Shown piece by piece: positions 37,463 to 61,907 of a stretch of DNA of 64,000 nucleotides. The notes beneath the pieces are model-generated. The model was not told where the DNA came from. It ran no database searches and worked only from the letters and a program-made list of their open reading frames with translations. The translations under genes were made by a program, and so were the position numbers. Where the stretch lies: assembly GCF_021172045.1 (NCBI RefSeq), contig NZ_CP087164.1, forward strand, positions 3,410,001 to 3,474,000, given 5' to 3'. The stretch comes from Capillimicrobium parvum (lineage in GTDB: Bacteria > Actinomycetota > Thermoleophilia > Solirubrobacterales > Solirubrobacteraceae). Every line of letters starts with the position of its first letter. Within the stretch, counting starts at the first letter, position 1.

Positions 37463-39022
37463 TCAGCGGCCCGCCGCGGCGCGCGCCTGCTGGACGTCGT
37501 CCTCGAGCAGCGTCGAGCCGCGGTCGCGCAGGACCGCGGAGCTCGCCTGGGCGACCTTGTAGAGGTCGTCCGCCCGCGGGTCGCCGGGGTGGTTCTTCAG
37601 CCACCAGTCGTCGTCGTAGTGGCGCAGGTCCCAGCCGGCGGGCTTGAACTCGCGCGCCAGCCGGTTGTTCTCCTCCTGCGTCAGCTTGCCGCGGGTCGTC
37701 GTCCACAGGGCGCTCTTCGTCGGCAGCGACGTGCTCCCGGGCCCGATCGGTCCGACGCCCGACGTCCACTCGTCGTCGGCGAGGATCGAGTACGGGACGC
37801 CCGTCCACATCTCGCCACGCGCGTCGGTGAACTTCGTCATGTGGTGCTCGCTGTGGTTCTGCGAGCTCATCGACAGCAGGCCGACGGTCTCGGCGATGAG
37901 CATGCCGCCGTACTCGTCGTTCATCAGCGGCTTGAAGCGCTGGCACTGCTCGTCGACCTCGAACCAGTCGGTCTGCTCGTAGACGCCGGCGAAGTGCGCG
38001 AGGTCCTTCGTCACCCCCGAGTACACGAGCAGGCCGGCGTCGATCATCTGGTCGCGGGACCACCCGGCCATCATCTTCCACATCCCCGCGGTCGCGTCGG
38101 TCATCTTCTCGCGCAGGTCGTCGAGGTAGTCGGCGAGCTCCTCGGCCGAGTCCATGTGGACCGGGATGTAGCCGTCGGAGAGGTGGTCGGACGTGTAGAC
38201 GCCGACGGCGACGAGGTTGTCGTTGTCGTAGGCGGGGGTCGCCTCGAACGAGCCCCAGTCGTCGACGATGTTGAAGTGCGTGTCCTTCATGATCACGACG
38301 ACCGTGAGGTTGTTGTGCTCGATCTCCGACGCCACCCCGTCCATCCAGGGGTAGTCGCACTCGGCGAGGTCGAGCATGTCGCGCACGAGCATCTCGTGGC
38401 CGCCCTTGGTCATGTACGGGCCGTGGTTGTTGAAGCTCAGCCGGCACTCGCAGTGGCTGAGGAACCCGTACGCCGACGCGGTCGCCATGAAGCGCCCGAA
38501 CGCCGTGTGCAGCTTGTCGCCGGGCGTCACGCCGAGCGCGTCGGCCTCCAGCACCTGCGTCTGGCGCTCGGTGTGGACCTGGGCGCGATGGCCCGCGTCG
38601 CTCGGGATGACGTGCGCGTGGGAGCGGTGGTAGGACAGGTTCAGCCGGCGCCCGAAGTCGAGCACCGACAGGATGTCGTCGATCGCGTCGGTCGGCTTGA
38701 GCATCCCCATGTCCAGGAGGATCTGGCGGCCGCCGAGGTAGAACTGCGGGATCAGGCCGGCGGTGATCGTCGACACGTAGCTGCCGACCTGGCGCGCGCG
38801 ATCGCCGATCTCCTCGGCCGGCATCGCCGCGTCGATCTTGCGCAGCAGCTCGGGCCAGCGGTACCAGGCGTTGAAGTACGACAGCGCGATGTACGGGTTG
38901 ACCGGAAACAGCTTGGACTCCTGGACGGTGCGCGTCGTGCACTGCCAGAAGAAGGACTCGCTCGCCTTGCGGACGTAGGCGTTGGCCTCGAGCAGGTCGA
39001 GGTGGGAGTGGTTGGCGGGCAT
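37463..39022 (-). CDS. Unrecognised 519-residue protein of the split-dikinase cluster
   Basis: Not recognised as a named family. It is soluble (no signal peptide or membrane helix), Trp/Asp/His-rich and near neutral. Conserved-looking features are SHAHVIPSDAGHRAQVHTERQ (about 130-150), FLSHCECRLSFNNHGPYMTKGGHEM, VVIMKDTHFNIVDDWG and SQNHSEHHMTKFTDARGEMW, i.e. several His/Asp clusters that could bind metal. ATG 39022 follows GAGAGGA. It lies 14 bp downstream of the swivel-domain gene and is last in the cluster with the ATP-grasp protein. By analogy with phenylphosphate synthase-like systems it may bind and hold the phosphate acceptor or be the next enzyme acting on the phosphorylated product. 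This is inference only. Confidence 0.85.
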   Translation of the reverse strand: MPANHSHLDLLEANAYVRKASESFFWQCTTRTVQESKLFPVNPYIALSYFNAWYRWPELLRKIDAAMPAEEIGDRARQVGSYVSTITAGLIPQFYLGGRQILLDMGMLKPTDAIDDILSVLDFGRRLNLSYHRSHAHVIPSDAGHRAQVHTERQTQVLEADALGVTPGDKLHTAFGRFMATASAYGFLSHCECRLSFNNHGPYMTKGGHEMLVRDMLDLAECDYPWMDGVASEIEHNNLTVVVIMKDTHFNIVDDWGSFEATPAYDNDNLVAVGVYTSDHLSDGYIPVHMDSAEELADYLDDLREKMTDATAGMWKMMAGWSRDQMIDAGLLVYSGVTKDLAHFAGVYEQTDWFEVDEQCQRFKPLMNDEYGGMLIAETVGLLSMSSQNHSEHHMTKFTDARGEMWTGVPYSILADDEWTSGVGPIGPGSTSLPTKSALWTTTRGKLTQEENNRLAREFKPAGWDLRHYDDDWWLKNHPGDPRADDLYKVAQASSAVLRDRGSTLLEDDVQQARAAAGR

Positions 39023-39036
39023 CGCTCGCGGTCCTC

Positions 39037-39762
39037 TCAGGAGAGCTTGATGATCCGGGCGCGCTGCGCCTTGGCGGTCGCGGCGTCGGCGTAGGCGTCG
39101 GCCGCCGGCTTGGAGTACTCGACGACGATCGCGTCGCCCTCGGACAGGCCGTCGAGCTCGGCGGCCATCAGGCACGGCACGCTGTACTCGCGCGTGAGGA
39201 TGCCGAGGTGCGAGCGCACGGTGCCGCCCATGCAGATCACCGCGGCGAAGTCCCCGAGGATCGGGGCGGTCAGCGTGCCGCCCGAGTCGTCGATGACCGC
39301 GATCGTGCCCTCGGGCACGCCCTCCGTCAGCATCTCCATGACCCGCTCGACGTCGGAGACGAAGCGCGCGGTGCCCTCGACGTCGGCACGCGCCTTGAAC
39401 ACGTTGTCGCCCGTGCCGACGATCGGCCGGCCCTGCTCGTCGCTGTCCTGCGCGCCCGAGTCGGCGCGCTCCGCGGGCGCCGCGTACTTGTCGGGCTCCT
39501 CCTGCAGCGAGACGACGGCGGACATCTGGAAGCGGTAGCCGGTGGAGAGCAGCTCGGCCTCGACCTTCTCGAAGTCCTCGCGGGTGAGCTGCAGCGACTT
39601 GTCCTGGACGGCCTCCTCCCACGTCCTGCCGCTGGCGGCGAGACGCTCGGCGACGATCTTGCGGATCGCCGTGTGGTAGGCCTCGACGATCGGCGTGCCC
39701 GACGGGCGGGCCCACTTGTCCGGGTAGGGGGTCACGCCCCCGGCCGCCACGGTGTCGGTCAT
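39037..39762 (-). CDS. PEP-utilising mobile (phosphohistidine swivel) domain protein
   Basis: Stand-alone swivel protein of 241 residues. The C-terminal half (about 150-230) is the PEP-synthase/PPDK phosphohistidine domain with active His185 in GGTVRSHLGILTREYSVP; the N-terminal half (1-110) is helical and unassigned. The ATG overlaps the stop of the ATP-grasp protein (ATGA), so the two are co-translated and probably exchange a phosphoryl group. The upstream partner already has its own swivel domain, so this cluster has two phosphohistidines. No PEP/pyruvate-binding TIM barrel is present in either protein. Confidence 0.9.
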   Translation of the reverse strand: MTDTVAAGGVTPYPDKWARPSGTPIVEAYHTAIRKIVAERLAASGRTWEEAVQDKSLQLTREDFEKVEAELLSTGYRFQMSAVVSLQEEPDKYAAPAERADSGAQDSDEQGRPIVGTGDNVFKARADVEGTARFVSDVERVMEMLTEGVPEGTIAVIDDSGGTLTAPILGDFAAVICMGGTVRSHLGILTREYSVPCLMAAELDGLSEGDAIVVEYSKPAADAYADAATAKAQRARIIKLS

Positions 39763-41537
39763 CTCTCCTCCTCGGATCTACTGGCCTCCTGCGCGAGGCG
39801 CAGGAGCAGGATGGCCTCGTGCTGCCCGGGCAGCCGCACGACGGCGGGCACTCCGCTGCGCGCGACGGCGCGCGCGCCCTCGGCGGTGGCGAGCACCGAG
39901 CCGCGGGCGGCGGGCGCGCCGGCCAGCCGCTGCGCGATCGCGCCGGCGTCCGGCGCGTCCTCGGGGTCGAGCACGAGCCCGGCCTCGTCGAGGTCGACGA
40001 CCTCCTCGGCCTCGTCGACCACGGCCGTCGGGCTGAGCTCGCGCGCCCACGCGACGAGCTCGGCGAGGCCGGGCACGTCGTCCTCGCCCACCTCCTCGGT
40101 CGCCAGCCGCCCGGCGTACACGACTCCGGCCGAGCCGTCGACCGTCACCTCGCGGTCCGCCCACGCGCCGGTCGCGCCCTCGCCGACGCCGACGACGCTG
40201 GGCCGGCCGAGCGCGCGCGTCACCACCGCGGCGTGCGACGTGGAGCCGCCGCGCTCGGTGACCACCGCGCGCGCCGCGATCATCCCGGAGACGTCCTCCG
40301 GGCTCGTGGTCGGGCGGGCGAGCACGACGTCCTCGCCCGCGTCCGCCGCCGCCTCGGCCGCGTCCGCATCGGCCACGACCCGGCCCGACGCGACGCCCGG
40401 GCACGCCGCGACGCCGCGCACGAGCACCTCGGCGACGTCGGCGGTCTCGCGCGCGAGCCGGGGCGCGAGCACGCTCGCGAGCTGCTCGGCGCTCACGCGG
40501 GCGATCGCCTGCGCCGGCTCGATGGCGCCCTCGGTGGCGAGGTCCACCGCCGTGCGGACCGCGGCCAGTGGCGCGCGCTTGGCCGAGCGGGTCTGCAGCA
40601 GGTACAGCCGGCCGCCCTCGACGGTGAACTCGATGTCCTGCACGTCGCCGTTCGTGCGCTCGAGCAGCGCGGCGGCCGCGAGCAGCTCGTCGTGGACCTC
40701 CGGCATCTGCTCGCGCAGCGCTTCGAGCGGCAGCGGGTCGTGGCTGCCGCTGACGACGTCCTCGCCCTGGCCGCCGGGCAGCCACTCGCCGTAGGGCTCG
40801 GGCGCGCCGCTGAGCGGGTCGCGCGTGAACAGCACGCCGGTGCCGGAGCGCTCGCCGAGGTTGCCGAACACCATCGCCTGCACCACCACCGCGGTCCCGC
40901 CGTCCTGCGGGATCCCCCAGTGCTTGCGGTAGGCGATCGCGCGGCGCGAGGACCACGACTCGAACACGGCGTGGATCGCCGCGCGCAGCTGGTCGTACGG
41001 GTCGCCGGGGACCTGCTCGCCGGTGTCCTCCTCGATCTCGGCGCAGACGACGTCGGGCGTCGCGTCGTCGCCCGGATCGTCGATGTCCGCGCCGAGCACC
41101 GTGTGGCCGAACTCGTGGCAGAAGCGCACATGGGTCGAGCGGGCGAAGCCCGCGTCGCCCGACAGGGCCGCCAGCCCCTCGCGCACCGCCTCCGTCATGC
41201 CGAGGTTGAGGATCGTGTCCATCATCCCCGGCATGCTCACCGCGGCGCCCGAGCGCACGGACACCAGCAGCGGCGCCTGCGGGTCGCCGAGCCGGCGCCC
41301 GGTCCTGGACTCGAGTTCCGCCACGCCCTCGAGGACCGCGGCCCACACCTTGTCGTCGAGGCGCCCACCGGCCGCGTGGTAGCGGCGGCACTCCTCGATC
41401 GGCAGGGCGAACGCCGGCGGGACCGGCAGGCCGAGGCCGAGCATCCGCGCGACCGACGCGCCCTTGTTGCCGATCTGCTCGCGATCGGCCAGCGTGTCGC
41501 CGTCGAGCACGATGACGTGCTCGCTGACGCCGCTCAC
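39759..41537 (-). CDS. Truncated pyruvate phosphate dikinase-like protein (ATP-grasp plus swivel, no TIM barrel)
   Basis: Protein of 592 residues whose first 440 match PPDK. The ATP-binding N-terminal domain has GNKGASVARMLGLGLPVPPAFAL (about 23-45), SVRSGAAVSMPGMMDTILNLG and GTGVLFTRDPLSG; the swivel domain has catalytic His435 in TERGGSTSHAAVV. True PPDK continues for about 350 more residues with the PEP/pyruvate TIM barrel; here only 157 unrelated residues follow. The enzyme should therefore phosphorylate its His from ATP and hand the phosphoryl group to a non-pyruvate acceptor, possibly via the neighbouring swivel protein. The GTG start at 41537 has only a weak ribosome-binding site. Confidence 0.9.
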   Translation of the reverse strand: MSGVSEHVIVLDGDTLADREQIGNKGASVARMLGLGLPVPPAFALPIEECRRYHAAGGRLDDKVWAAVLEGVAELESRTGRRLGDPQAPLLVSVRSGAAVSMPGMMDTILNLGMTEAVREGLAALSGDAGFARSTHVRFCHEFGHTVLGADIDDPGDDATPDVVCAEIEEDTGEQVPGDPYDQLRAAIHAVFESWSSRRAIAYRKHWGIPQDGGTAVVVQAMVFGNLGERSGTGVLFTRDPLSGAPEPYGEWLPGGQGEDVVSGSHDPLPLEALREQMPEVHDELLAAAALLERTNGDVQDIEFTVEGGRLYLLQTRSAKRAPLAAVRTAVDLATEGAIEPAQAIARVSAEQLASVLAPRLARETADVAEVLVRGVAACPGVASGRVVADADAAEAAADAGEDVVLARPTTSPEDVSGMIAARAVVTERGGSTSHAAVVTRALGRPSVVGVGEGATGAWADREVTVDGSAGVVYAGRLATEEVGEDDVPGLAELVAWARELSPTAVVDEAEEVVDLDEAGLVLDPEDAPDAGAIAQRLAGAPAARGSVLATAEGARAVARSGVPAVVRLPGQHEAILLLRLAQEASRSEEER

Positions 41538-41589
41538 GATGCAACCACCCGCAGGGTCGTGACCGCGGTGGGTGAGGACCCGCAGGGTC

Positions 41590-42207
41590 TCACGGCGCCT
41601 CCTCGCGCTCGCGGCCCAGCATGCGCAGGAGGTCCTCGTGCAGCTCGAACCAGACCGTGTGGTAGCTGTCGATCCGCGCGCCGCTGACGTAGTCGGTCTC
41701 GCCGGCGAGCACGCGGTCGTAGGCGGCGTCGAGCCGGCGGCGGTACTCGCCCATCCGCGGCAGCAGGGCCGAGAAGCGGTCGAGCACCTTCTCGGCGCGC
41801 TCGTGCTGGCGTCCGAGGCGGTCGACGACGCCGTGGTCGTAGTCGGCGTCGGAGTGGTCGTTGGGCACCCGCTCGCCGCCGGGGGTCGGCATCATCTGCC
41901 AGTCGGTGAACAGCGCGAGCAGCTCGCGGTTGATGCGCTCGAAGCGCTCGTACGCGGCGGTCGCCTCCGGGTCGGCGCGGAAGCCCGCGAACGCCTCGGG
42001 GTAGCGGTCGGCCAGCCACTCGCGCCCCGGGGGCGTGACCATGAAGGTGCCCTTCGCGCCGACCGCCCGCCCCGCGGCGACCGCGGCGTCGAGCGCGCCG
42101 GACACCGTCGCCGCATCCGCTCCGAGGATGTCGGCCACCGCGTCGGGCCCGCCGGCCTTCTTGACGGCGAGCCCGTGCAGGGCGAGCAGCTCCAGGTCGT
42201 CGGTCAT
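41590..42207 (-). CDS. Winged-helix-like protein associated with the PPDK-like cluster
   Basis: Protein of 205 residues. The N-terminal 65 residues look like a winged helix (LALHGLAVKKAGGPDAVADILGADAATVSGALDAAVAAGRAV, then a wing GTFMVTPPGREWL). The C-terminal domain is helical with a conserved-looking FTDWQMMP...NDHSDADYDHGVVDRLGRQ. A similar small protein is often a neighbour of PPDK-like genes in actinobacteria (recalled, not checked). It starts the four-gene cluster; TACCGT lies nine bases upstream of its ATG, suggesting a nearly leaderless mRNA. It may bind DNA, or may be an enzyme subunit that reuses the fold. Confidence 0.8.
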   Translation of the reverse strand: MTDDLELLALHGLAVKKAGGPDAVADILGADAATVSGALDAAVAAGRAVGAKGTFMVTPPGREWLADRYPEAFAGFRADPEATAAYERFERINRELLALFTDWQMMPTPGGERVPNDHSDADYDHGVVDRLGRQHERAEKVLDRFSALLPRMGEYRRRLDAAYDRVLAGETDYVSGARIDSYHTVWFELHEDLLRMLGREREEAP

Positions 42208-42293: not shown

Positions 42294-42617
42294 GGGTGCC
42301 GACCGCCGCCCTGGCGGATGCAGGGTGCGCTGCTGAGATCTGCGGCGGGGAGGCGGGCCCCCGGGGGATCTCAAGGGTGCCGACCGCCGCCCGGGCGGAT
42401 GCAGGGTGCGCTGCTGAGATCTGCGGCGGGGAGGCGGGCCCCCGGGGGATCTCAAGGGTGCCGACCGCCGCCCGGGCGGATGCAGGGTGCGCTGCTGAGA
42501 TCTGCGGCGGGGAGGCGGGCCCCCGGGGGATCCCAGGGGTGCCGACCGCCGCCCTGGCGGATGCAGGGTGCGCTGCCGGGATCTGCGGGGGTGAGCCGGG
42601 CGGCGTGGGATCTCAGC
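42294..42617. repeat. Four tandem copies of an 81-bp repeat
   Basis: Units start at 42294, 42375, 42456 and 42537 with a constant 81-bp period. Units 1-3 are nearly identical; unit 4 has several changes and overlaps the hydrolase stop codon (42613-42615). Each unit contains CCGCCCGGGCGG (or one mismatch), AGATCT and CCCCCGGGGG palindromes. The array fills most of the 405-bp gap between two minus-strand genes (42207 and 42613). Because 81 is a multiple of three, an open frame runs through both strands, but it has no start context and encodes only the repeat, so it is not called as a gene. Confidence 0.9.
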
Positions 42618-43341
42618 TCCAGTGCCGCAGCAGGGCCTCGGCCGTCTCCCGTGGGCGCTCGTACGGCCACCAGTGGCCGCAGTCGAGCACGACCAGCTCG
42701 GCGCGCATGCGCTCCGCCAGGCGCTCGGCCCAGACGAGCGGCACGTACGGGTCGTCGCGCCCCCAGATGACCATCGCCGGCACCGCTATCCGCTCGAGAT
42801 CCGGCTGCCACTCCGCGCCGATGTGCACGGCCGAGCGGTAGAGCTTGAGGATGACCGTCTTGTTGCCGGGGGTCAGCCAGGCGTTGCGCTCGGCATCCTG
42901 CTGCGGCACGCCGTGCTCGACGAGGTACGGGATGGAGACCTCCGGGGTGAGGTCCTCCTCCATGTAGCGCTCGCCCTCTCCCGGCGTCTGCCAGACCTGG
43001 GCGATCTCGTGCCACGGGTAGTCGACGTCCACGGCGGCGCCGCCCGCCGCGACCGAGCGCAGGAGGTCGGGCCGCGTCGACGCGATCCGCTGCACGAGCA
43101 GCGAGCCCCAGTCGTGGCCGACGAGGTCGACCGGGCCGCCCCGGTCCTTCAGCGCCTCGAGCTGCTCGACGATCCAGTCGACGTAGGTCTCCTTCGTCGC
43201 CGGATGGTCGTCGCCGGCCGGCTCCGCGAAGCCGGGCAGGTCGACCGCGACGATCTCCTGGCCGTAGGGGCCGAGGTGCTCGACGACCCGGTCCCACAGG
43301 TGGGCGGTGTCGGGGTTGCCGTGGACCAGCAGCGCGGGCAT
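42613..43341 (-). CDS. Alpha/beta hydrolase (haloalkane dehalogenase/epoxide hydrolase-like)
   Basis: Alpha/beta-hydrolase of 242 residues. HGNPDTAHLWD (7-17) is the oxyanion-side motif, the nucleophile is Asp77 in LVGHDWGS, the acid lies in WGRDDPYVP, and the base His near residue 223 is in DCGHWWPYERP. HGNP plus GHDWGS is more like haloalkane dehalogenases and dehalogenase-like hydrolases than true epoxide hydrolases. It follows a histidine phosphatase by 18 bp in an operon begun by the zinc ADH at 45092. The repeat array starts at its stop codon. Confidence 0.85.
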   Translation of the reverse strand: MPALLVHGNPDTAHLWDRVVEHLGPYGQEIVAVDLPGFAEPAGDDHPATKETYVDWIVEQLEALKDRGGPVDLVGHDWGSLLVQRIASTRPDLLRSVAAGGAAVDVDYPWHEIAQVWQTPGEGERYMEEDLTPEVSIPYLVEHGVPQQDAERNAWLTPGNKTVILKLYRSAVHIGAEWQPDLERIAVPAMVIWGRDDPYVPLVWAERLAERMRAELVVLDCGHWWPYERPRETAEALLRHWS

Positions 43342-43359: not shown

Positions 43360-44049
43360 TCAGCCGGCGGGGCCGGTGGGATGGGTGAGATGGCAGATGT
43401 CGTTGAACGAGCGCAGCAGCCAGCGGCCGTCGGCCAGCACGATGAGCCGGGTGATCGAGCCGTTGTCGGCGTGCACGAACGCGAACGGGCGGCTGGCGGA
43501 GGCCTGCGCGCAGAGCTCGCCGATGACGGCGCCGTGCACGACGGCGACGGCCGTCCGGTCCGGGCCGGTCTCGGCCACGATCTGCTCGATCGCGCGGCGC
43601 ACGCGGGCGCCGAGCGACTCGCGCGACTCGCCGCCCGGGATCGCGTCCCAGCGCTCCTCGTCGAACACCTGCCGGATGATCGGGTCGCCCCGAGCGGCGC
43701 GGATGCGGTACTGGCCGCCCTCGAACTCGCCGAGGCCGACCTCGGCGAGGTCCGCCAGCACGGTCGGCTCGAGGCCGGTCGCCTCGGTCAGCGGCGCGGC
43801 CGTCTGGTGCGTGCGCCGCAGCGTCGACACGTAGAGGCGGTGGATGCCCTCGTGCTGCAGCCGGCGCGCGGCCTCCCGGGCCTGGGCGTGGCCGCCGTCC
43901 GACAGCGCGGGGTCGCTGTGGCCGTCGACGAGCGGGAAGCTGACCCCCTCCATCGCCGCCTCCGAGGCACCGTGGCGCACGAGGATCACCTCGGTCGCCC
44001 CCGGCGGCAGCGCGAACGGGTGCTGGTGGAACGCGTCGCGGTCGCTCAC
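43360..44049 (-). CDS. Histidine phosphatase-family protein
   Basis: Phosphoglycerate-mutase/histidine-phosphatase fold, 229 residues. The catalytic motif is LVRHGASE (about 23-30) and the second His is in AVVHGAVIGEL. The GTG start at 44049 overlaps the ADH stop (GTGA). A paralogue at 61908 shares the same plan and near-identical C-terminal NGSI-x-R...FND-x-x-HLT. Two copies in catabolic operons suggest a phosphorylated intermediate or a thioester-like role, but neither has been shown. Confidence 0.87.
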   Translation of the reverse strand: MSDRDAFHQHPFALPPGATEVILVRHGASEAAMEGVSFPLVDGHSDPALSDGGHAQAREAARRLQHEGIHRLYVSTLRRTHQTAAPLTEATGLEPTVLADLAEVGLGEFEGGQYRIRAARGDPIIRQVFDEERWDAIPGGESRESLGARVRRAIEQIVAETGPDRTAVAVVHGAVIGELCAQASASRPFAFVHADNGSITRLIVLADGRWLLRSFNDICHLTHPTGPAG

Positions 44050-45092
44050 GAGGACGGCGGGGCGCCCGGCGTGACGAGGACCTTCAGCGAGCGGTCCTTG
44101 CTCATCTGGGTCTCGAACGCCTCCGCGACGTCGTCGAGCGCGTGGCGGTGCGTGATGAGCGGGTCGGCCTGGGCGCGCCCGCTCGACAGCAGCGCCACCG
44201 CCTCGCCGAAGTCGTCGCTCGTGTAGGCGATGCTGCCCTGCAGGCGGATCTCCTTCTGCACGAGCGCCGTCGGGTTGAACGTGAGCGGGTCGTCGTAGAG
44301 GGCGAGCACGACGATCGTGCCCCCGGCCTTGACCGTGTCCAGCGCGGCTCTGGCGAGCTCCGGCACGCCGGAGCACTCGAAGACGACGTCGACCTCCTCG
44401 CCCTCGCCGAGCGCGGCGTCGACCGCCGCGTCGATGCCCGCCGCGCCATCGACCGCGTCGGCCCCCAGGGTGGCCGCCGCCCGCAGGCGCAGCTCGGAGA
44501 GGTCGATGCCGATGACGCGGCGCGCGCCGTACGCGCGCAGGACCTGGAGGACCTGCTGGCCGATCGTGCCCAGGCCGAGCACGAGCGCCGTGCTGCCCTC
44601 GACGTCGCCCGCCAGCCTGACCGCATGGACGGCGACCGCGAGGGGTTCGACGGTCGCGCCCTGCTCGTCTGACATGTCGTCGGAGAGCTTGAAGACGTTC
44701 TCGCCCGGGATGGAGCGCGGGATGCGGATCCGCTCCGCGAACGCGCCCGGGCGCCCGTAGGCGAGCCCGGTGGTCCAGGCCGAGGCGCACAGGTTGTAGC
44801 GGCCCTCGAGGCAGCGAGGGCAGTCGCCGCAGGGCACGAGCGGCGAGGCGGTCACGCGATCGCCGACCTGCAGGCCGCTGACCTCGTCGCCGGCCTCGAC
44901 GACCTCGCCCGCGAACTCGTGGCCCATGATCTGGCCGGGCGCGACGAACGAGCCGTGCTCGTAGGTGTGCAGGTCCGAGCCGCAGATGCCGCACACGCTG
45001 ACCGCGACGACCACGTCCTCCGGTCCCGCCTGCGGGTCGTCGACCTCCTCGACCCGGATGTCCTTGATGCCCTGGAAGACCGCCGCCTTCAT
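44046..45092 (-). CDS. Zinc-dependent alcohol dehydrogenase (2,3-butanediol/sorbitol dehydrogenase-like)
   Basis: Medium-chain dehydrogenase of 348 residues, similar in plan to the ADH at 11309-12361. The catalytic zinc motif is CGICGSD (about 34-40), followed by GHEFAGEVVEAG. The structural zinc loop is CGDCPRCLEGRYNLC, and the Rossmann fold has VLGLGTIGQQV. It heads an operon with a histidine phosphatase and an alpha/beta-hydrolase. The promoter shows the common dyad (45174-45189) 41 bp from CAGCAT. Likely oxidises a secondary alcohol; the specific one is unknown. Confidence 0.9.
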   Translation of the reverse strand: MKAAVFQGIKDIRVEEVDDPQAGPEDVVVAVSVCGICGSDLHTYEHGSFVAPGQIMGHEFAGEVVEAGDEVSGLQVGDRVTASPLVPCGDCPRCLEGRYNLCASAWTTGLAYGRPGAFAERIRIPRSIPGENVFKLSDDMSDEQGATVEPLAVAVHAVRLAGDVEGSTALVLGLGTIGQQVLQVLRAYGARRVIGIDLSELRLRAAATLGADAVDGAAGIDAAVDAALGEGEEVDVVFECSGVPELARAALDTVKAGGTIVVLALYDDPLTFNPTALVQKEIRLQGSIAYTSDDFGEAVALLSSGRAQADPLITHRHALDDVAEAFETQMSKDRSLKVLVTPGAPPSS

Positions 45093-45251: not shown

Positions 45252-46010
45252 CTACGGAGCGGTGTAGCCCCCGTCCACGCTCATCGCCGTGCCGGTGACG
45301 AACGAGGCTTTGTCGGACAGCAGCCACACGCAGGCGGACGCGATCTCGGGCGCCTGGGCGAAGCGGCCGATCGGGTGGTTGGCGCGCGCGGCCTCCACCG
45401 CGGCCGCGTCGCCGCCCAGGAGGTTCTCGAACAGGTCGGAGACCATCGGCGTCTCGGTGTAGGACGGGCAGACCGAGTTGACCCGGATTCCCTCTGTGGC
45501 GTACTCGAGCGCCGCCGCCTTCGTGAGGCCCACGACGCCGTGTTTGGCGGCGACGTAGCCGACGGCGCCCGGCCAGCCGATCAGCCCGGCCGCCGACGCC
45601 ATGTTGACGATCGACCCGCCGCCGTCGGCCAGCATCGCCCGCAGCTCGTGCTTCGTGCACAGGAACACGCCGTTGAGGTCGACGTCGCAGATGCGCTTGA
45701 AGTCCTCGAAGCTCGTGTCGGCCGTCATGCCGATCGTGCCGAGGATCCCCGCGCAGTTGAACGCGCCGTCGAGCCCCCCGAGCTCGCGCTGGGCGGTCGC
45801 GACGAGCTCCTCGACCTGGCTCTCGTCGGTGACGTCGCAGGCGACGAACGTCGCGCCGCCGAGCTCCTGCGCCAGCGCCGTCCCGCGCGCCTCGTCGACG
45901 TCGGAGAGCAGCAGCCGCGCGCCCTCCGCGCGCGCCTCCCGCGCCGTCGCCTCGCCGATGCCGCTGGCGGCGCCGGTGATCAGCACCACCTTGTCGTCCA
46001 GGATCCCCAT
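45252..46010 (-). CDS. SDR family oxidoreductase
   Basis: Short-chain dehydrogenase of 252 residues. LITGAASGIGEATA (10-23), an acidic LSDVDEARG after strand 2 (NAD preference likely), NCAGILGT, and MASAAGLIGWPGAVGYVAAKHGV with Ser, Tyr and Lys complete the active site. It lies 17 bp downstream of an acyl-CoA ligase and shares its message. The downstream gap of 159 bp to the ADH contains that gene's dyad promoter and no other feature. Confidence 0.92.
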   Translation of the reverse strand: MGILDDKVVLITGAASGIGEATAREARAEGARLLLSDVDEARGTALAQELGGATFVACDVTDESQVEELVATAQRELGGLDGAFNCAGILGTIGMTADTSFEDFKRICDVDLNGVFLCTKHELRAMLADGGGSIVNMASAAGLIGWPGAVGYVAAKHGVVGLTKAAALEYATEGIRVNSVCPSYTETPMVSDLFENLLGGDAAAVEAARANHPIGRFAQAPEIASACVWLLSDKASFVTGTAMSVDGGYTAP

Positions 46011-46027: not shown

Positions 46028-47563
46028 TCAGGCCGTGGCGGCCGAGCGCACCCGGTCGCGCAGCGGCTTCTTGTCGATCTTGCCGGTCGAGGTCTTGGGC
46101 AGGTCGTCGACGACCTCCCAGGTCGACGGCACCTTGAACGGGGCCAGGCGCTCGCGGCAGTGCCGCTCCACCGCGTCCAGGCCGGCCCCGGCGGCCAGCA
46201 CGACGACCGCGTGCACCTCCTCCCCGCGCACCGCGTCCGGGCGGCCGACCACCGCGGCGCCCTGGACGGCGTCGTGCTCGAGCAGGACGTCCTCGATCTC
46301 GCGCGGGTAGATGTTCTCGCCGCCGCGGATGATCATGTCCTTCTTGCGGTCGACGAGGAAGATGTAGCCGTCGGCGTCGCGGTAGCCGACGTCGCCGGTG
46401 TGCAGCCAGCCGTCGCGCAGCGTCTCGGCGGTCGCGTCCGGGCGGTTGAGATAGCCCTGCATGACGTTCGGCCCGCGGACGCACACCTCGCCCGGGACGC
46501 CGTCGCCCGCGGCCCGGCCGTCGTCGCCGCGGATGACCACGTCCTGCCCGCGCACCGGCAGGCCGATCGAGCCGATCTTGCGCGGGCCGTGGAACGGGTT
46601 GAGCGTCGAGCAGCAGGCGCCTTCGGTGAGGCCGTAGCCCTCGAGCACCGCGATGCCGAACTTCGCCTCGAAGCGCTCGAACATCGCCGGCGACAGCGGC
46701 GCGGCGCCGCACACGACGTAGCGGACCGAGTTGGTCTCCGCCTCGTCGGCGCCGGGTGCGTGCAGCAGTGCGGCGAGCATCGTCGGGACCGCCGAGAACG
46801 TCACCGGCTCGAAGCGCGCGACCGTGTCCCAGAACGTCGAGGCCGAGAAGCGCTCCCACATCGCGACCTCGGCGCCGATGAGCATCGGCATGACCGTCGT
46901 CACGACCTGGGCGTTGACGTGGAACAGCGGCAGGACCATGCCGAGGACGTCGCCGCGGACCACCGGGACGAGCTCGCCGAGCATGCGCGTGTCCGACATG
47001 AAGTTGCGGTGGCTGAGCATCGCGCCCTTCGGCCGGCCCGTCGTGCCCGACGTGTAGACGAGCGACATGAGGTCGTCCGGAGCGGCGCCGGCCTCGTCGG
47101 CGACGGTCCCGTGCGCGCGCAGGACGCCGAGCGGGTCGCCGGCGGCCTGGTCGACGCCGACCAGCTCGCGCAGCGCGGGCAGCTCGCCGCGGACGGCGGC
47201 GAAGTCCTCCTCGCGGGCGGCCTCGCAGACGATCGTGCTCGCGCCCGAGTCCTCGAGGATGCCCATCGCCTCGCGCAGCGTCAGGTCCGGGTTGACCGGA
47301 TTGAAGACGGCGCCGAGCCAGAGGATCGCCCACCACACCTCGAGGTACTCCGGCCCGTTGCGCAGGACGACGCCGACGACGTCGCCGCGCTGCACGCCGG
47401 CAGCGCGCAGGCCCGCGGCGATCTCCGTCACCCGGTGGTGGAACTCGGCGTAGGACCAGGCCACCCGGTCGTCGCGGACGAAGCGCGCGTCGCCGAGCTC
47501 GGCCGCGCGCGTGCGCAGCAGCTCGGGGAGGGTCTGGGTCTCCGTGTTGAGCACGCCGGGCAT
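46028..47563 (-). CDS. AMP-forming acyl-CoA synthetase
   Basis: ANL-superfamily ligase of 511 residues. SLVYTSGTTGRPKGAMLSH, LEGYGLTEGACC, VDRKKDMIIRGGENIYPREIE and the catalytic lysine region TSTGKIDKKPLRDR are present. The start MPGVLNTET at 47563 is preferred to the ATG at 47632 because GACGCT lies six bases upstream, the expected place for a leaderless -10, and the longer N-terminus reads as low-complexity. The promoter dyad lies 42 bp further. First gene of a ligase-SDR pair. Confidence 0.9.
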   Translation of the reverse strand: MPGVLNTETQTLPELLRTRAAELGDARFVRDDRVAWSYAEFHHRVTEIAAGLRAAGVQRGDVVGVVLRNGPEYLEVWWAILWLGAVFNPVNPDLTLREAMGILEDSGASTIVCEAAREEDFAAVRGELPALRELVGVDQAAGDPLGVLRAHGTVADEAGAAPDDLMSLVYTSGTTGRPKGAMLSHRNFMSDTRMLGELVPVVRGDVLGMVLPLFHVNAQVVTTVMPMLIGAEVAMWERFSASTFWDTVARFEPVTFSAVPTMLAALLHAPGADEAETNSVRYVVCGAAPLSPAMFERFEAKFGIAVLEGYGLTEGACCSTLNPFHGPRKIGSIGLPVRGQDVVIRGDDGRAAGDGVPGEVCVRGPNVMQGYLNRPDATAETLRDGWLHTGDVGYRDADGYIFLVDRKKDMIIRGGENIYPREIEDVLLEHDAVQGAAVVGRPDAVRGEEVHAVVVLAAGAGLDAVERHCRERLAPFKVPSTWEVVDDLPKTSTGKIDKKPLRDRVRSAATA

Positions 47564-47652: not shown

Positions 47653-48717
47653 TCAGCGGCCGCTGAGGATCATCAGGGAGACGAGCGGCAGGCGGCCCGG
47701 TGCGCGGCGCGCGCTGAGCGCCAGCCCGACGCGCGCGCCCGACACCTGGCGCCGGCCCGCCTCACCGCGCAGCTGCCAGGCGATCTCGCACACCTGGGCG
47801 ATGCCCGACGCGCCGATCGCCTCGCCCTGGGACAGCAGGCCGCCGCTCGTGTTGACCGGCAGCACGCCGCCCAGCGCGGTGAACGCGCTCTCCACCAGCT
47901 CGGGTCCCTGCCCCTGCGGCGCGAACTGCAGCGCCTCGTACGCGGCCATCTCACCGGCCGCGGTGCTGTCGTCGACCTCCGCGAGATCTATCTCCTCGGG
48001 GCCCAGGCTCGAGCTCTGGTAGGCGAGCAGCGCCGCCCGCGAGATCGCGTCGCCTGCGTCGCTGTCGCCGAGCAGCACCGACGCCCGCACCCGCGCCGCG
48101 TGGCCACCGAGCCGCCGCCGCACGGCACCCGACGTGAACACCACCGCGGCGGCGCCGTCGGCGTGCGCGGCCACCATCAGGCGCCGCAGCGGCCACTCGA
48201 GCAGCTCGCTGCCCATCACGTCGCCGGCGTCCACCCGCGTCGCCAGCAGCGCGCGGGGGTTGTCGGCGCCGAGCGTGCGGTTCTTCGCGGCGACGCGCGC
48301 GAGGTGCTCCTCCGTCGCGCCGCTCGCGTCCATGTAGTGCTGCGCCGCCGCGGCCTGCGCGTGCAACAGCGTGCCGTTGGACTCGGGCTCGCCCGCGAGG
48401 GTCCCGATCCCCGCGCACAGCACGACGTCGTATTCGCCGCCGGCCACGGCCTGCCACGCCATCTGCATCGCGCGCGACGCCCACGCCGTCGGTCGCCCGA
48501 CCGGGGCGATTCGCTCGGTGCCCAGGCCGAGATCCGGCAGCTCGCTGCGCTGCGCCGCGCCCACCCCGGCGCTCAGCGACATCGCGGCGACGTCGCTTGC
48601 GGCGAGGCCCGCATCCGCCAGCGCGGCGGCGACCGCCTCGCGGCCGAGCTCCTCTTCGGTCCGTCCGGAACGCCCGAACCCGGTCGCCCCGACGCCGACG
48701 AGGAAGACCTCGCGCAC
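47653..48717 (-). CDS. Thiolase-fold protein lacking usual catalytic residues
   Basis: SCP2/lipid-transfer-type thiolase-fold protein of 354 residues. The frame is family-like throughout (GREAVAAALADAGL, HADGAAAVVF, ALGGVLPVNTSGGLLSQGEAIGASG), but the nucleophilic Cys is absent (GRPTAWASRAMQ, with Trp79 at the Cys position). The GHP His is Glu299, and the C-terminal Cys/Gly loop is GLALSARRAPGRL. GTG 48717 has GGAGG five bases upstream. Such proteins can be aldolases with a DUF35 partner (Ltp2-like) or inactive; no DUF35 gene is next to it. Confidence 0.85.
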   Translation of the reverse strand: MREVFLVGVGATGFGRSGRTEEELGREAVAAALADAGLAASDVAAMSLSAGVGAAQRSELPDLGLGTERIAPVGRPTAWASRAMQMAWQAVAGGEYDVVLCAGIGTLAGEPESNGTLLHAQAAAAQHYMDASGATEEHLARVAAKNRTLGADNPRALLATRVDAGDVMGSELLEWPLRRLMVAAHADGAAAVVFTSGAVRRRLGGHAARVRASVLLGDSDAGDAISRAALLAYQSSSLGPEEIDLAEVDDSTAAGEMAAYEALQFAPQGQGPELVESAFTALGGVLPVNTSGGLLSQGEAIGASGIAQVCEIAWQLRGEAGRRQVSGARVGLALSARRAPGRLPLVSLMILSGR

Positions 48718-48754
48718 GAACACCTCCAGTTCGGGTACGGCGTTGACGAGCGCG

Positions 48755-48854: not shown

Positions 48855-50795
48855 CTATGTGGCCGCGGCGCGCACCACCTCGAGCGACGAGCGCCGCGTC
48901 GTGTCGGCGACCGCCGGGCTCGGCTCGGGCAGCCGCCCCTGCAGCAGCAGGACGAGCAGCGCCATGCGCACGCGCAGCTGCGCGTCCGGGTCGTGCGTCA
49001 CCGCCAGGCCGGTGAGGTCCTCGATGCGGGCGAGCCGGTAGCGGATCGTGTTCTCGTGGACGTCGAGGCACGCCGCGCAGCGCCGGATCGACGCCATGTT
49101 GTCGAAGAACGAGCACAGCGTCGTGAGCAGGTCGGCCTTCGACGGATCGTCGACGAGGCTGCCGAACGTCTGCTCCGCCGACGCGGTGACGAGCTCGTTG
49201 TCCGACGTGGCCAGGAACAGCGCGCCCGCGCCCAGGTCCGCCGACGAGAAGATCGCCGGACCGCCCGGCGGCGAGAAGCGCCGGATGCACTCGACGACCT
49301 GGCGCGCCTCGCCGAACGCGCTGCGGTAGCCGTCGCGGTCGCAGCGCACCGGCGACACGCCCGCGACGAGCCGGTCGCCGCGCGGGAGCTGGGCCCCGAC
49401 CCGACGCACGACGTCCTTGAGGTATGCGGTGAACGCCTCGTCCTCGAGCCCCGGCAGCTGCTCGGCGAGGACGGCGACGCCGCCGCTGACCGCCGTCGCG
49501 TGGACGCTCAGCTCGGGGGCGACCTTGCGCAGCGCCGCGGCGACCGCCCGGAAGTCGAGCGTGGCGGCGCCGGCGCGCGAGCGCGGCCCGATGAGCATCA
49601 CGGCGCGCGGCGCGTCGAGGCGGAAGCCGAGGCGCTCGGCCCGCCGGCGCAGCACGGTCTCCTCGCAGCAGCCGCCGAGCACCTCGGCGGCGAGCGACGC
49701 GCCCGCGTCCCAGTCGGCCTCGATGGCCTGGCGCTCGGTGCCGACCTGCAGCGCGATGAGCGTCGCCGCGCGGCGCAGGGTGAGCATGTCGCCGCCGACG
49801 AAGCGCGACTTGTGCTCCATGACGACGAGCCGGCCCCAGGTCTCCGCCCCGACGATGATCGGCGCGATCACGTAGCGGTGCATGACGCCGGCCAGCGGGA
49901 GGGGGCCGACGACGAACGCGCGGCTGCCGTCGTGGGCGGCCAGCGCGTCACGGACCTCCGGGCGGTCGATGTACGGCGACTCGAGGATGCGGGGAGCGAT
50001 GCCGTCGTCCGTGCCCGGCGGCGCGGCCGTGGCGAGCCGCGTGTTGTCGGCGTCGAACACGGCGCACGGCTTGACGAGCACCACGGCGAGCTCCTCGAGC
50101 AGCTCGTGCAGCGTGGCGCCCTGGAGCACGAGGTCGCTGAGGCGCTCGTCGACGACGCTCGAACGGCGCAGCGCGTTGATGTGGCGCTGGGCGGCATCGA
50201 CCTGCGCGCGCAGCTCGGCGCGCGACTGGGCGTGCATGACCGCGACGGCGGCGAGGTCGCCGAACGTCGAGGCCACCTCCGCGTCCTCGCCGGTGAAGAC
50301 GTGCGGCCCGGCCATGTCGTCGAGGAAGATCACGCCGATGACCTCGTCCTGGAAGATCATCGGGACGGCCATGATCGCGTGGATCTTCCAGAAGCGGACC
50401 GTCGACTTGATGATGCGCGGGTCCTGGTGCGCGTTGTCGACGATGACCGGGCGCTTCGTGCGCAGCAGCTCGAGGATGAGGCGGTCCGACGGGCCGCCGA
50501 CGCGGGAGCGCTTGATGTCGGCGTCGCGGGTCGGCTCGCCGGCGTAGCAGACGCAGCCGAGGAACAGCCCGGCCTTCTCGTCGCGCAGGTGGATCGAGCA
50601 GCGCTCGACGCCGACGAGCTCGCAGATGTGCCGCGCGACCGCGTGCAGCAGCCCGTCGAGGTCCGCCGAGTCGTCGGCCGCCGCGGCCACGCGCGAGAAC
50701 GCGGCCAGCGCGCGGCGGAGGCTGGCGCTGCCGGCGTGGCCGGGCGCGGACTTGCTCGGCGTCGCCTTGGCGCGCGTGCGCACTGTGGTGCTCAC
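48855..50795 (-). CDS. GAF-domain PucR-type regulator
   Basis: Regulator of 646 residues. A GAF domain occupies about residues 45-200 (HICELVGVERCSIHLRDE..., AVPMIFQDEVIGVIFLDD), a middle about 230-400 region is a second sensor-like part (ELAVVLVKPCAVFDADN...), a GGDEF-like domain without its motif follows, and the PucR HTH is CLDVHENTIRYRLARIEDLTG near residue 600. The GTG at 50795 has GAGGAGG upstream. It is divergent from an ADC-fold gene across a 319-bp control region with two dyads. It is the second candidate, after 36140-37414, for the regulon's DNA-binding protein; GAF domains often bind aromatic or other small effectors. Confidence 0.9.
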   Translation of the reverse strand: MSTTVRTRAKATPSKSAPGHAGSASLRRALAAFSRVAAAADDSADLDGLLHAVARHICELVGVERCSIHLRDEKAGLFLGCVCYAGEPTRDADIKRSRVGGPSDRLILELLRTKRPVIVDNAHQDPRIIKSTVRFWKIHAIMAVPMIFQDEVIGVIFLDDMAGPHVFTGEDAEVASTFGDLAAVAVMHAQSRAELRAQVDAAQRHINALRRSSVVDERLSDLVLQGATLHELLEELAVVLVKPCAVFDADNTRLATAAPPGTDDGIAPRILESPYIDRPEVRDALAAHDGSRAFVVGPLPLAGVMHRYVIAPIIVGAETWGRLVVMEHKSRFVGGDMLTLRRAATLIALQVGTERQAIEADWDAGASLAAEVLGGCCEETVLRRRAERLGFRLDAPRAVMLIGPRSRAGAATLDFRAVAAALRKVAPELSVHATAVSGGVAVLAEQLPGLEDEAFTAYLKDVVRRVGAQLPRGDRLVAGVSPVRCDRDGYRSAFGEARQVVECIRRFSPPGGPAIFSSADLGAGALFLATSDNELVTASAEQTFGSLVDDPSKADLLTTLCSFFDNMASIRRCAACLDVHENTIRYRLARIEDLTGLAVTHDPDAQLRVRMALLVLLLQGRLPEPSPAVADTTRRSSLEVVRAAAT

Positions 50796-55440: not shown

Positions 55441-55534
55441 GTCTTCTGCTCCTCAGAGTCTGTCGTTTGGAACGTGATGAGCGGTGCCGGCTCCGGGCCG
55501 TCTTGGCCCGCCCGGAGCCGGGGCACCGTTCATG

Positions 55535-58496: not shown

Positions 58497-59957
58497 TCAG
58501 CGGCGCAGCGCGACGGTGACCTCGCCGCGCGACGCGGTGATCGCGCGGCCGGCGCCGTTGCGCAGCACGTCGCTCAGCCAGCCGAGCCCCTGGACGCCGG
58601 TGATGGGGTAGATCGGCTCGATCGGCTGGGCCGCGGCGTACATCGCGTCGACGTCCGGGCCGGGGATGAGGTAGCGCAGCAGCAGCTCCTCGTCGGAGAG
58701 GCTTCCGCCGTACTGGGCCCGGATCTCGGCGAGCGACGGCTGCGGCGGGTCGCTGTCGAAGATCTGGCGGCCGCGCTCGGTCCGGCTCGCCCGGTCGAGC
58801 AGCTCCGGGTCGACCTCGCCGGGCGGATCGCCGTACCAGCCCGCGAGGTACATCAGGTTCTCGTCGGGGATCGTCAGATAACGCTCGCCCTGCACGACGT
58901 TCAGCAGCGCCTGGATGCCGACCAGCTGCGAGAACGGCGTGGCCATGATCGGATAGCCCATCTCCGCGCGCACGCGGATCGCCTCCTCGAGCACCGCGGG
59001 CAGCCGGTCCGCCATGCCGTGGCTGACGAGCTGGTTGCGCAGCGTGCCGGTCATGCCGCCGGGGAACTGCTGCTGGATCGTCGCCATGGAGTACTCGACG
59101 GACTCGCCGAGGTGATGGCCCTCCTCGATCGTGAGCGCCGCGAAGTGCTCGGAGACCTCGGCGAGCCGGCTGTCGTCGAGCGTGACCTCGTGTCCGAGGC
59201 GGCGCATGTTGTCGACCGCGACCTCCACCGACGGCATCGACGGCCCGTTGGCCAGCGAGCTGATCGCCGTGTGCAGGATCGTCACGCCCTCCTCCACCCC
59301 GATGCGGTGGTTCAGCGCCGCCATCGCCGTCTTGTCGTGGAAGTGCATCTCCAGCGGCACGCCGTGTGCGTGCTCCTGCATGAGGCGGATCCACTGCCGC
59401 GCGCGCTCGGGGCCCAGCACGCCGGCCTCGTCGCCGATGATGATCGTGTCGGCCACGCCCCCCGCCGCCATGCGGTCCATGATCGACGCGTAGTGGGCGT
59501 CGGTGTGGACGGGCGACTCCGAGAAGTTGACCTGCGGCGACGGCTTGACGCCCGCGTCGCGGGCGATCTTCGCCACCTGCAGCATCTTGTCGACGTTGTG
59601 CAGGCAGTCGAAGATCCACAGGCTGCCGATGCCGTGCTTGGCCAGGGTCTGCACCCAGAGCTCGATGATCGAGTCGGGCGTGATGCCCATGCCGACCACG
59701 CCGTTGTCGCGCGTCCCCGCTCGCAGCGTCGTGTGCGGGAAGGCGGCGTGGATCGCGTCGAGGCCGCGCCAGGGATCCTCCTGGCGGAAGCGCACGAGCA
59801 CCTCGAAGATCGAGCTGCCGGTGAGGTCGACGACGCGGTAGCCCGCCGTGTCGATCGCGTCCGCGACCGGCAGGATGTGGCCGGCGCGCATGCGCATCCC
59901 CCACAGGCTCTGCTGGCCGTCGCGCAGGGACTGGTCGATGAACTCGATGCGCGCCAT
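58497..59957 (-). CDS. Biotin-dependent carboxyltransferase-like (PYC/OADA-HMGL fold)
   Basis: TIM-barrel protein of 486 residues. It has LRDGQQSLWGMRMR (11-24), a blend of HMG-CoA-lyase-type RDGxQ and oxaloacetate-decarboxylase-type RDAHQSL. It has the metal ligands H205-F-H207-D, and a conserved-barrel C-terminal domain with MATPFSQLVGIQALLNV. The family's carboxylated lysine block KDMAGLL reads GDEAGVL here (G175), as in HMG-CoA lyase/isopropylmalate-type GDT.G. Its stop is first in line after the biotin carboxylase (TGATG), so it should be the transferase of this biotin complex, but acceptor and mechanism are uncertain. Confidence 0.85.
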   Translation of the reverse strand: MARIEFIDQSLRDGQQSLWGMRMRAGHILPVADAIDTAGYRVVDLTGSSIFEVLVRFRQEDPWRGLDAIHAAFPHTTLRAGTRDNGVVGMGITPDSIIELWVQTLAKHGIGSLWIFDCLHNVDKMLQVAKIARDAGVKPSPQVNFSESPVHTDAHYASIMDRMAAGGVADTIIIGDEAGVLGPERARQWIRLMQEHAHGVPLEMHFHDKTAMAALNHRIGVEEGVTILHTAISSLANGPSMPSVEVAVDNMRRLGHEVTLDDSRLAEVSEHFAALTIEEGHHLGESVEYSMATIQQQFPGGMTGTLRNQLVSHGMADRLPAVLEEAIRVRAEMGYPIMATPFSQLVGIQALLNVVQGERYLTIPDENLMYLAGWYGDPPGEVDPELLDRASRTERGRQIFDSDPPQPSLAEIRAQYGGSLSDEELLLRYLIPGPDVDAMYAAAQPIEPIYPITGVQGLGWLSDVLRNGAGRAITASRGEVTVALRR

Positions 59958-61330
59958 CAGGCCGCCTCCTCCTTCGGGGTCCAGCCGGGCAGGAACTCCT
60001 CCTCGAGCCAGCGGGTGTGCACGCGTCCGGAGACGACGTCCGGGTGCTCGAGCACCTCGAGCGCGAAGCCGGCCGTCGTCGCCACGCCCTCGACGCGCAG
60101 GTGGCGCAGCGCGTGGTCGATGCGCCGCAGCGCGTGGGCGCGATCGATCCCGCGTGCGATGACCTTCGCCAGCAGCGAGTCGTAGTACGGGACGACCGTC
60201 CAGCCGGGGAAGCACGCGGTGTCGACGCGCACGTCGCCGCTGACGGGCGCCGCCCAGCGCTCGATGCGCCCGGGCGAGGGCAGGAAGCCGGCCTCGGGGC
60301 GCTCGGCGTTGATGCGCACCTCGATCGCGTGGCCGTGGACCTCGACGTCGTCCTGCGCGAAGGAGAGCGGCGCACCGCCGGCGATGCGCAGCTGCTCGCG
60401 CACGATGTCGATGCCGGTGACCATCTCGGTGACCGGGTGCTCGACCTGCAGGCGGGCGTTGATCTCGAGGAAGGCGTAGGACGCGCGCTCGACGTCGACG
60501 AGGAACTCGCACGTGGCGGCGCCGGCGTAGTCGAGCTCGCCGATGAGGCGCACCGCGGCGGCGCAGATCTGCTGCCCGAGATCGCCGGGCAGGCCGGCCG
60601 CCGGTGCCTCCTCGACGAGCTTCTGGTAGCGGCGCTGCAGCGTGCAGTCGCGATGGCCGAGGTGCACCACGCCGCCCCGGCCGTCCGCGAGCACCTGCAC
60701 CTCCACGTGGCGCGCGCGGCGGACGTAGCGCTCGATGAAGACGCGCCCGTCGTCGAACGCCTGCTGGGCCTCGCCCGCGGCCGTGTGGAAGGCGCGCTCC
60801 AGCTCGGCGGGCTCGTCGACGAGCCGCATGCCGCGGCCCCCTCCCCCGCCCGCGGCCTTGATGAGCACCGGATAGCCGATGCGCTCGGCGACCTGGGCGG
60901 CGACGGTCGCGTCCTCGAGGACGCCCGATCCCTCCCCGACCGCGATGCCGAGGTCCTTGGCGAGCGCGCGGGCGGTCGCCTTGTCGCCGCTGCGGCGCAT
61001 GGCCTCCTCGGACGGGCCGACGAAGGCGATGCCGGCCTCGGCGCAGGCGGCCGGCAGCTCCGGGCGCTCGGAGACGAAGCCGTAGCCGGGGTGCAGCGCG
61101 TCGCAGCCGGTGACCGTGGCGGCGGCGATGAGGCGGTCGATGTCGAGGTAGCTCTCCGTGGCGCTCGCCGGGCCGATGCAGATCGTGCGATCGGCGAGTT
61201 GGGCGCCGAGGCTGTCGCGGTCGGCGTCGGAGACCGCGAGCACGGCCTCGAGGCCCTCGTCGAAGCAGGCCCGGATGACGCGCACGGCGATCTCGCCGCG
61301 GTTGGCGACGAGCACGCGCTCGAGCGCCAT
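59957..61330 (-). CDS. Biotin carboxylase subunit
   Basis: AccC-like ATP-grasp biotin carboxylase of 457 residues. N-terminal VLVANRGEIAVRVIRA, glycine-rich AAGGGGGRGM (about 157-166), FIERYV, and EINARLQVEHPVTEMVTGIDIVREQ are present. It carboxylates the biotin of the BCCP encoded upstream using bicarbonate and ATP. Its ATG overlaps the BCCP stop (TGATG). The operon lacks AccA/AccD-type transferases; the PYC/OADA-like gene downstream takes their place. Confidence 0.95.
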   Translation of the reverse strand: MALERVLVANRGEIAVRVIRACFDEGLEAVLAVSDADRDSLGAQLADRTICIGPASATESYLDIDRLIAAATVTGCDALHPGYGFVSERPELPAACAEAGIAFVGPSEEAMRRSGDKATARALAKDLGIAVGEGSGVLEDATVAAQVAERIGYPVLIKAAGGGGGRGMRLVDEPAELERAFHTAAGEAQQAFDDGRVFIERYVRRARHVEVQVLADGRGGVVHLGHRDCTLQRRYQKLVEEAPAAGLPGDLGQQICAAAVRLIGELDYAGAATCEFLVDVERASYAFLEINARLQVEHPVTEMVTGIDIVREQLRIAGGAPLSFAQDDVEVHGHAIEVRINAERPEAGFLPSPGRIERWAAPVSGDVRVDTACFPGWTVVPYYDSLLAKVIARGIDRAHALRRIDHALRHLRVEGVATTAGFALEVLEHPDVVSGRVHTRWLEEEFLPGWTPKEEAA

Positions 61331-61854: not shown

Positions 61855-61907
61855 GTGCGGCTTCTCCAAGTCGGGCGGGGGCCGCCGGTGTGGGCGATCA
61901 TCCGCGC

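Follow-up and report, generated by a model that had tools for sequence, protein, structure and literature searches.

A four-part, barrel-less relative of pyruvate, phosphate dikinase in Capillimicrobium parvum and its probable link to biotin-dependent carboxylation

Four adjacent minus-strand genes, running from 42207 to 37463 in a 64,000-nucleotide window of the genome of the soil actinobacterium Capillimicrobium parvum (NZ_CP087164.1, positions 3,410,001 to 3,474,000), encode the parts of a real and conserved dikinase, which is new relative to the literature searched, where no description of the four-part system was found. We named the products D205, C592, B241 and A519 (Table 1). We propose, with a probability of about 60%, that they form one small-molecule dikinase derived from pyruvate, phosphate dikinase (PPDK), which primes a ketone-type compound for carboxylation. 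We infer the phosphoryl relay and, from the neighbouring genes, the substrate class.

A conserved set built on a PPDK front half

The set has an operon-like layout, with a gap of 52 bp between D205 and C592, a 4 bp overlap between C592 and B241 and a gap of 14 bp between B241 and A519. Homologues were gathered from related genomes and plasmids (compared loci are designated L002, L003 and so on), and genes in them were called with a simple script, for which the window served as training data and which missed genes in some genomes; presence counts from searches of large groups of genomes, for example at least 9 of 397, are lower bounds, few candidates having been scored per genome. The order of the four genes is identical in L002, L003 and L004, at 69-82% identity, and the four are also present, rearranged, in Actinomycetes and in one Alphaproteobacterium, so that the set is not a chance assembly. 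A sequence-only reading made earlier had described the four-gene cluster and suggested looking for it in other genomes; all four reading frames were confirmed, on the minus strand and with the sizes that it gave. The associated genes reach past the four, to 42.6-48.7 kb and 58.5-62.6 kb. PADLOC gave no match for an anti-phage role.

C592 has Pfam matches to PPDK_N (4e-39) and PEP-utilizers (1.5e-19) and none beyond, and scores 679 bits against NF004531, whose cut-off of 456 is also passed by full-length PPDKs. Among PDB sequences it matches PPDK with 366 bits, phosphoenolpyruvate (PEP) synthase with 97 and RPH with 34. The alignment with PPDK runs to about query residue 503 and ends before the barrel, which bears out the earlier description of a PPDK-like protein stopping at that point. 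C592 keeps the PPDK-class ATP-grasp residues (motifs VSVRSGA, QDIEFT and LQTR), its catalytic-type His435 lies within a GGSTSHAAVV motif, and the ATP-site and histidine motifs are conserved in C homologues. It thus resembles PPDK in its ATP-grasp and phosphohistidine domains; the four-part set differs in having extra subunits and no PEP/pyruvate TIM barrel, PF02896 giving no match among the four proteins.

A barrel encoded elsewhere and pairing with the set, the observation that the sequence-only reading had named as telling against it, was looked for genome-wide and was not found. The single PEP-utilizers_C domain of the whole genome lies inside an 860-aa open reading frame that also carries the PPDK front half, and is therefore that of an ordinary full-length PPDK. 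The genome thus contains no recognisable free barrel with which C592, its only barrel-less PPDK, could form a complete PPDK in trans, and this possibility was ruled out.

In B241, PF00391 matches residues 150-214 (E 2.4e-5) and the phosphohistidine motif is GGTVRSHLGILTRE. The S/T-H motif is kept in 34/34 called B rows (30 automatic matches and 4 by eye), in agreement with the swivel domain and His185 read earlier from the letters; like His435 of C592, His185 is a catalytic-type histidine. In the model of a fused homologue from L042, the swivel domain resembles those of pyruvate kinase, RPH, enzyme I and PPDK (Z 11-14).

D205 had no family match in Pfam, NCBIfam and PDB-sequence searches and is single-copy in the genome. 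Its role is indicated by fusions: a single 770-aa protein in L042 and L043 has the domain order B-A-D and adjoins C, and C and D are fused in one protein in L109. D, fused to B-A in some loci and to C in another, is thus a subunit linked to both halves, and these fusions, together with a neighbourhood that stays constant, identify the four parts as one enzyme. In the AlphaFold2 (AF2) model built for the L042 fusion (pLDDT 88.2, pTM 0.74), the D part contains a four-helix bundle. The small winged-helix protein noted earlier in the cluster is indeed present, and has to be considered as a subunit because of its fusions to other subunits elsewhere. A role of D as a transcription factor is ruled out by the same fusions, and the annotation "MarR regulator" given to D in some RefSeq records looks like misannotation; this name and that of "pyruvate, phosphate dikinase" for C are the two database names to be corrected.

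A519 gave no above-chance Pfam match and no NCBIfam or PDB-sequence match. Its AF2 model (pLDDT 81.9, pTM 0.85) consists of helices around one antiparallel sheet, not of alternating beta-alpha units. Neither Foldseek against the PDB (E<=0.001) nor VIA (Z>=2) gave a match for it, an absence which is not proof of a new fold. The protein, described earlier as an unknown, matches no family and no PDB fold. Nine residues are invariant in 23 homologues (F187, R194, G201, P202, R214, W226, P263, G330 and Y334). Searched alone, the model listed no match to RPH, including its RIF-binding-domain fold, although absence from the list does not exclude likeness; only this search counts, the search with the fused model being dominated by the swivel domain and barely probing the A part. 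Compared with HpeH types, A519 reached an hhalign probability of 0.1, with no NCBIfam match. A relationship of A519 to HpeH and, less firmly, to RPH was rejected, on the lack of homology in hhalign and of a PDB fold match.

Further arrangements of A genes were observed. In a sister clade (L040 7571-13158 and L041 9929-15513), two tandem A genes accompany B, D and a phosphotriesterase-like protein, with C and carboxylase not nearby. In Rhodococcus and relatives (L052 11908-16278 and L070/L071), the main set has beside it another A/B kinase set, of a short type, which includes a swivel+A fusion of 535 aa.

Association with carboxylation and comparison with known dikinases

The A519 clade contains 14 rows and has 99/99 support in the tree. 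Biotin carboxylase (BC) and/or carboxyltransferase (CT) genes lie near A in 12 of its 14 loci, the remaining two being cut contigs, and neither was found in the compared stretch of the loci of other A clades. Orthologues (>=47%) of CT1, the carboxyltransferase of the window, are present in 9/9 genomes with the A519 clade and in 0/6 with only other clades, a split with an exact probability of 1 in 5005 if the 15 genomes were independent, which they are not fully. In L052 and L053 (Rhodococcus oxybenzonivorans pRB98 and R. pyridinivorans pA) a single run comprises B, A, CoA ligase, D, C, biotin carboxyl carrier protein (BCCP), BC, CT, an OB-fold protein, thiolase and a tyrosine phosphatase, and in L072 and L073 A-D and the carboxylase form one 18-kb cluster. 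R. oxybenzonivorans is a benzophenone-3 degrader, which may be a clue to the substrate. The window CT1 groups with those of L072 and L073 at 100/100, apart from HpeB-type transferases. In L002 (11507-14486), L072 (11445-14448) and L073 (5334-8335), the kinase genes come with a second type of carboxyltransferase (CT2) that has a CoA ligase of its own.

The two histidine phosphatases of the window lie one beside the kinase genes and one beside the carboxylase genes, and in other loci the place of the histidine phosphatase is taken by Y_phosphatase3 proteins, so that two unrelated superfamilies occupy an equivalent position. The presence of biotin carboxylase, phosphatases, CoA ligase and thiolase in the set indicates a ketone-type acceptor. 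The sequence-only reading, whose interpretation as a whole is partly supported, had missed these associated genes as well as the known family of barrel-less PPDKs. Its proposal of ATP-dependent phosphorylation of an alcohol, ketone-enol or phenol stands insofar as a split, barrel-less relative of PPDK, which is not a PPDK, most likely acts on a non-pyruvate small molecule; the neighbouring genes suggest that this is a ketone-type compound.

A comparable chemistry was described in Rhodococcus rhodochrous GD02, in which HpeHI phosphorylates hydroxyphenyl ketones that HpeCBA then carboxylates (PMC9618137, PMC12167813). HpeCBA carboxylates the phosphorylated substrate only, and the authors were aware of no further aerobic pathway for aromatics that involves a carboxylation (PMC9618137). 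The phosphate is removed by HpeD, and a ligase and a hydrolase complete the pathway (PMC9618137, PMC12167813). The window set shares with the Hpe/Acv pathway a three-part biotin carboxylase with a transferase of the PYC/OadA class, a phosphatase and a CoA ligase in the cluster, and shares with HpeHI, AcvAB, CreHI and PpsAB the placing of ATP-grasp and phosphohistidine parts on separate chains. However, the ATP-grasp chain of HpeHI, PpsAB and CreHI is of the PEP-synthase class and has no swivel, whereas C592 is of the PPDK class and has its own; the HpeH substrate domain is replaced by A519, which has no detectable homology to it; the window set has a separate swivel chain and the extra subunit D; and its phosphatase belongs to another superfamily than HpeD. 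As A519 is not detectably related to HpeH and C592 is of the PPDK class, the system would work like Hpe/Acv with a kinase from outside the HpeHI family.

Two Hpe/Acv-type clusters are present elsewhere in the studied genome, one at 775-792 kb (L116 4317-11384: HpeH, HpeI, BCCP, BC, CT and a haloacid dehalogenase (HAD) phosphatase) and one at 602-618 kb (L117 5299-10666: HpeH, HpeI, CT and a phosphatase). Their BC (52%) and CT (36-40%) are homologous to the window carboxylase. Their true HpeH types (PRK08296 family) score 820-861 bits, and their HpeI types score as PEP-synthase class, opposite to C592. The likeness to phenylphosphate synthase drawn earlier is thus one of function and not of descent of the whole enzyme, the HpeH/HpeI-type relatives being those other clusters. 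RPH has the same small-molecule dikinase logic and a swivelling phosphohistidine domain, in a single chain (ATP-grasp, RIF domain, swivel) with a PEP-synthase-class ATP-grasp, whereas the window set has four chains. The transfer from enzyme I to HPr in the phosphotransferase system offers a parallel for a possible His-to-His transfer between two proteins and has the same swivel fold; it is PEP-dependent, whereas the window set is ATP-dependent and its second carrier is also a swivel domain. If our proposal is true, the set would represent a third way of building a small-molecule dikinase, besides RPH and HpeHI/PpsAB, with another ATP module and a substrate module of unfamiliar fold, and phosphate-primed ketone carboxylation, so far described for hydroxyphenyl ketones, would have arisen with at least two unrelated kinases.

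Proposed route, the VadK relatives and rival explanations

In the proposed route, ATP bound in the ATP-grasp of C592 would very probably serve for self-phosphorylation of His435, as in VadK. The phosphoryl group would then probably pass to His185 of B241, either directly between the two histidines or through a visit of B241 to the ATP site; the order of transfer between the two histidines is a guess from the chemistry of enzyme I and PPDK. B241 would hand the group to a substrate on A519, with D205, to judge from its fusions, bridging the donor and acceptor halves. The ketone-type substrate, most simply a hydroxylated one, would be phosphorylated so that BCCP, BC and CT1 may carboxylate it next to the carbonyl. 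Finally, the histidine phosphatase would strip the phosphate, the CoA ligase would activate the resulting beta-keto acid and the thiolase would cleave it. By analogy, our best reading is that the route follows the Hpe/Acv acetovanillone logic with a different kinase and phosphatase.

The closest studied relative of C592 is VadK (Rv1127c) of the NF004531 family, a virulence kinase of Mycobacterium tuberculosis. This barrel-less PPDK autophosphorylates the histidine equivalent to His435 and was reported as a regulatory, protein-directed histidine kinase acting on the methylcitrate cycle; its operon partner Rv1126c raises its solubility and is hard to separate, being removed by a 2 M salt wash (PMC13400623). 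From position and size in relatives, Rv1126c is probably a member of the D family. The strongest VadK-type genes in Mycobacteriales are mostly directly beside a D-family gene. VadK shares with C592 the NF004531 family, the missing barrel and the D-family gene in the operon. In L104, L106 and L107 a VadK-type gene has recognisable methylcitrate genes nearby, D adjoining C in L104 and L106 and lying about 4 kb off in L107. The VadK-type loci examined had no A and no separate B nearby, whereas the window set has both and no prp genes were recognised near it. Barrel-less PPDKs were thus already known (NF004531; VadK/Rv1127c), and what is new is the four-part system and the D205-family neighbours of VadK-type genes. 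In other loci C adjoins swivel proteins of RPH-like type or proteins that carry the annotation PEP-utilizing enzyme, so that C-D may serve as a donor module for acceptors of several kinds. We suggest, tentatively, that C-D is a general phosphoryl-donor module for which B-A cassettes or RPH-like proteins are interchangeable His-to-His acceptors, as from enzyme I to HPr. In this view A519 would have a new substrate-binding fold, and VadK and its D-type partner in mycobacteria would form the donor side of such a system, the acceptor of which, perhaps a metabolite, was overlooked. Through D, VadK is linked to catabolic enzymes, and what it phosphorylates becomes directly testable.

Several observations weigh against the proposed route. 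In the window, 16 kb and a transporter separate the carboxylase genes from A-D; CT2, which lies beside A in relatives, has no close orthologue in the studied genome; and distant A clades have no carboxylase, so that their substrates differ. A519 is a putative substrate-binding module, a role that we assign by elimination, and since VadK was reported as protein-directed, the acceptor in this family could be a protein.

This last point leads to the alternative of C-D as a VadK-like protein histidine kinase regulating the neighbouring enzymes, with B and A as targets or sensors. The reported regulation of the methylcitrate cycle by VadK (PMC13400623) and the resemblance of D to winged-helix regulators (MarR in some records) fit such a role. 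We nevertheless consider it improbable, as a phosphohistidine domain is always present in B itself, which in L042/L043 forms one protein with A and D, RPH-like acceptors lie beside C elsewhere, and small-molecule chemistry fits the phosphatase, ligase and carboxylase neighbours. The 16 kb gap could also mean that the kinase set and the carboxylase are two pathways sharing one catabolic island, the kinase acting on an alcohol whose phosphorylated form is dehydrated or isomerised; the other A clades without carboxylase are consistent with this, as are the homologues on the Methylibium methyl tert-butyl ether (MTBE) plasmid, which flank tert-butyl alcohol island genes. The contiguous run in L052 and L053, the single cluster in L072 and L073 and the phyletic match of 9/9 against 0/6 count against this, the least probable of the alternatives. 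An unlikely explanation too, and the least so of the three, is that this dikinase converts a simple ketone lacking a hydroxyl group into its enol phosphate, as PPDK does with pyruvate, and that the enol phosphate is then carboxylated. It would suit the PPDK class of C592 and the pyruvate-carboxylase class of the transferase. However, transferases of the pyruvate-carboxylase type act on the keto form, which argues against it, and an enol phosphate would leave less need for a separate phosphatase. In the HpeHI/HpeCBA precedent it is the phenol that is phosphorylated and the methyl ketone that is carboxylated, with a separate phosphatase afterwards (PMC9618137). The priming of a ketone-type compound by a four-part dikinase is the explanation that we prefer.

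Genes of the window and other observations

Table 1. The four-part set and neighbouring genes in the window
Feature	Coordinates	Strand	Size and basis
A519: putative substrate-binding subunit, no known family	37463..39022	-	519 aa; Pfam, NCBIfam, PDB and fold searches, homologue alignment
B241: second phosphohistidine (swivel) subunit, His185, ~110-aa N-terminal extension	39037..39762	-	241 aa; PF00391
C592: PPDK-class ATP-grasp and phosphohistidine domain (His435), without barrel	39759..41537	-	592 aa, GTG start; NF004531
D205: winged-helix and four-helix-bundle subunit	41590..42207	-	205 aa; fusions
Alpha/beta hydrolase, conserved neighbour	42613..43341	-	PF12697 7e-23; orthologues 73-74% in L002-L004
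Histidine phosphatase, proposed for carboxylated phospho-intermediate	43360..44049	-	PF00300 1.1e-39; orthologues 64-68% in L002-L004
Zn alcohol dehydrogenase, conserved neighbour	44046..45092	-	sequence; 70-72% in L002, L004
Short-chain dehydrogenase, conserved neighbour	45252..46010	-	sequence
AMP-forming acyl-CoA ligase	46028..47563	-	PF00501 2.8e-90; 68-76% in L002-L004
Thiolase-like protein	47653..48723	-	PF22691 8e-31; 53-58% in L002, L004
Putative GAF-PucR regulator	48855..50783	-	GAF and HTH_30
Carboxyltransferase CT1, pyruvate-carboxylase-B / OadA class	58497..59957	-	PYC_OADA, HMGL-like; NF006761 326 bits
Biotin carboxylase (BC)	59957..61330	-	Biotin_carb_N, CPSase_L_D2, Biotin_carb_C
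Biotin carboxyl carrier protein (BCCP), likely start ATG ~61854	61330..61869	-	PF00364 1.2e-20
Second histidine phosphatase	61890..62579	+	PF00300 2.9e-41; 45% identical to 43360-44049

Between the two groups of genes, two acetoacetate-decarboxylase-family proteins (51115-51906 and 57647-58471, both on the plus strand) flank a branched-chain-type ABC transporter (51959-56893).

On the plasmid of Methylibium petroleiphilum PM1 (L112 2094-34278), the B12-dependent mutase genes of the MTBE/tert-butanol island have A, B and D homologues immediately upstream, and C occurs next to a Rieske oxygenase, together with tyrosine and histidine phosphatases. This neighbourhood suggests a tertiary-alcohol substrate for that clade.

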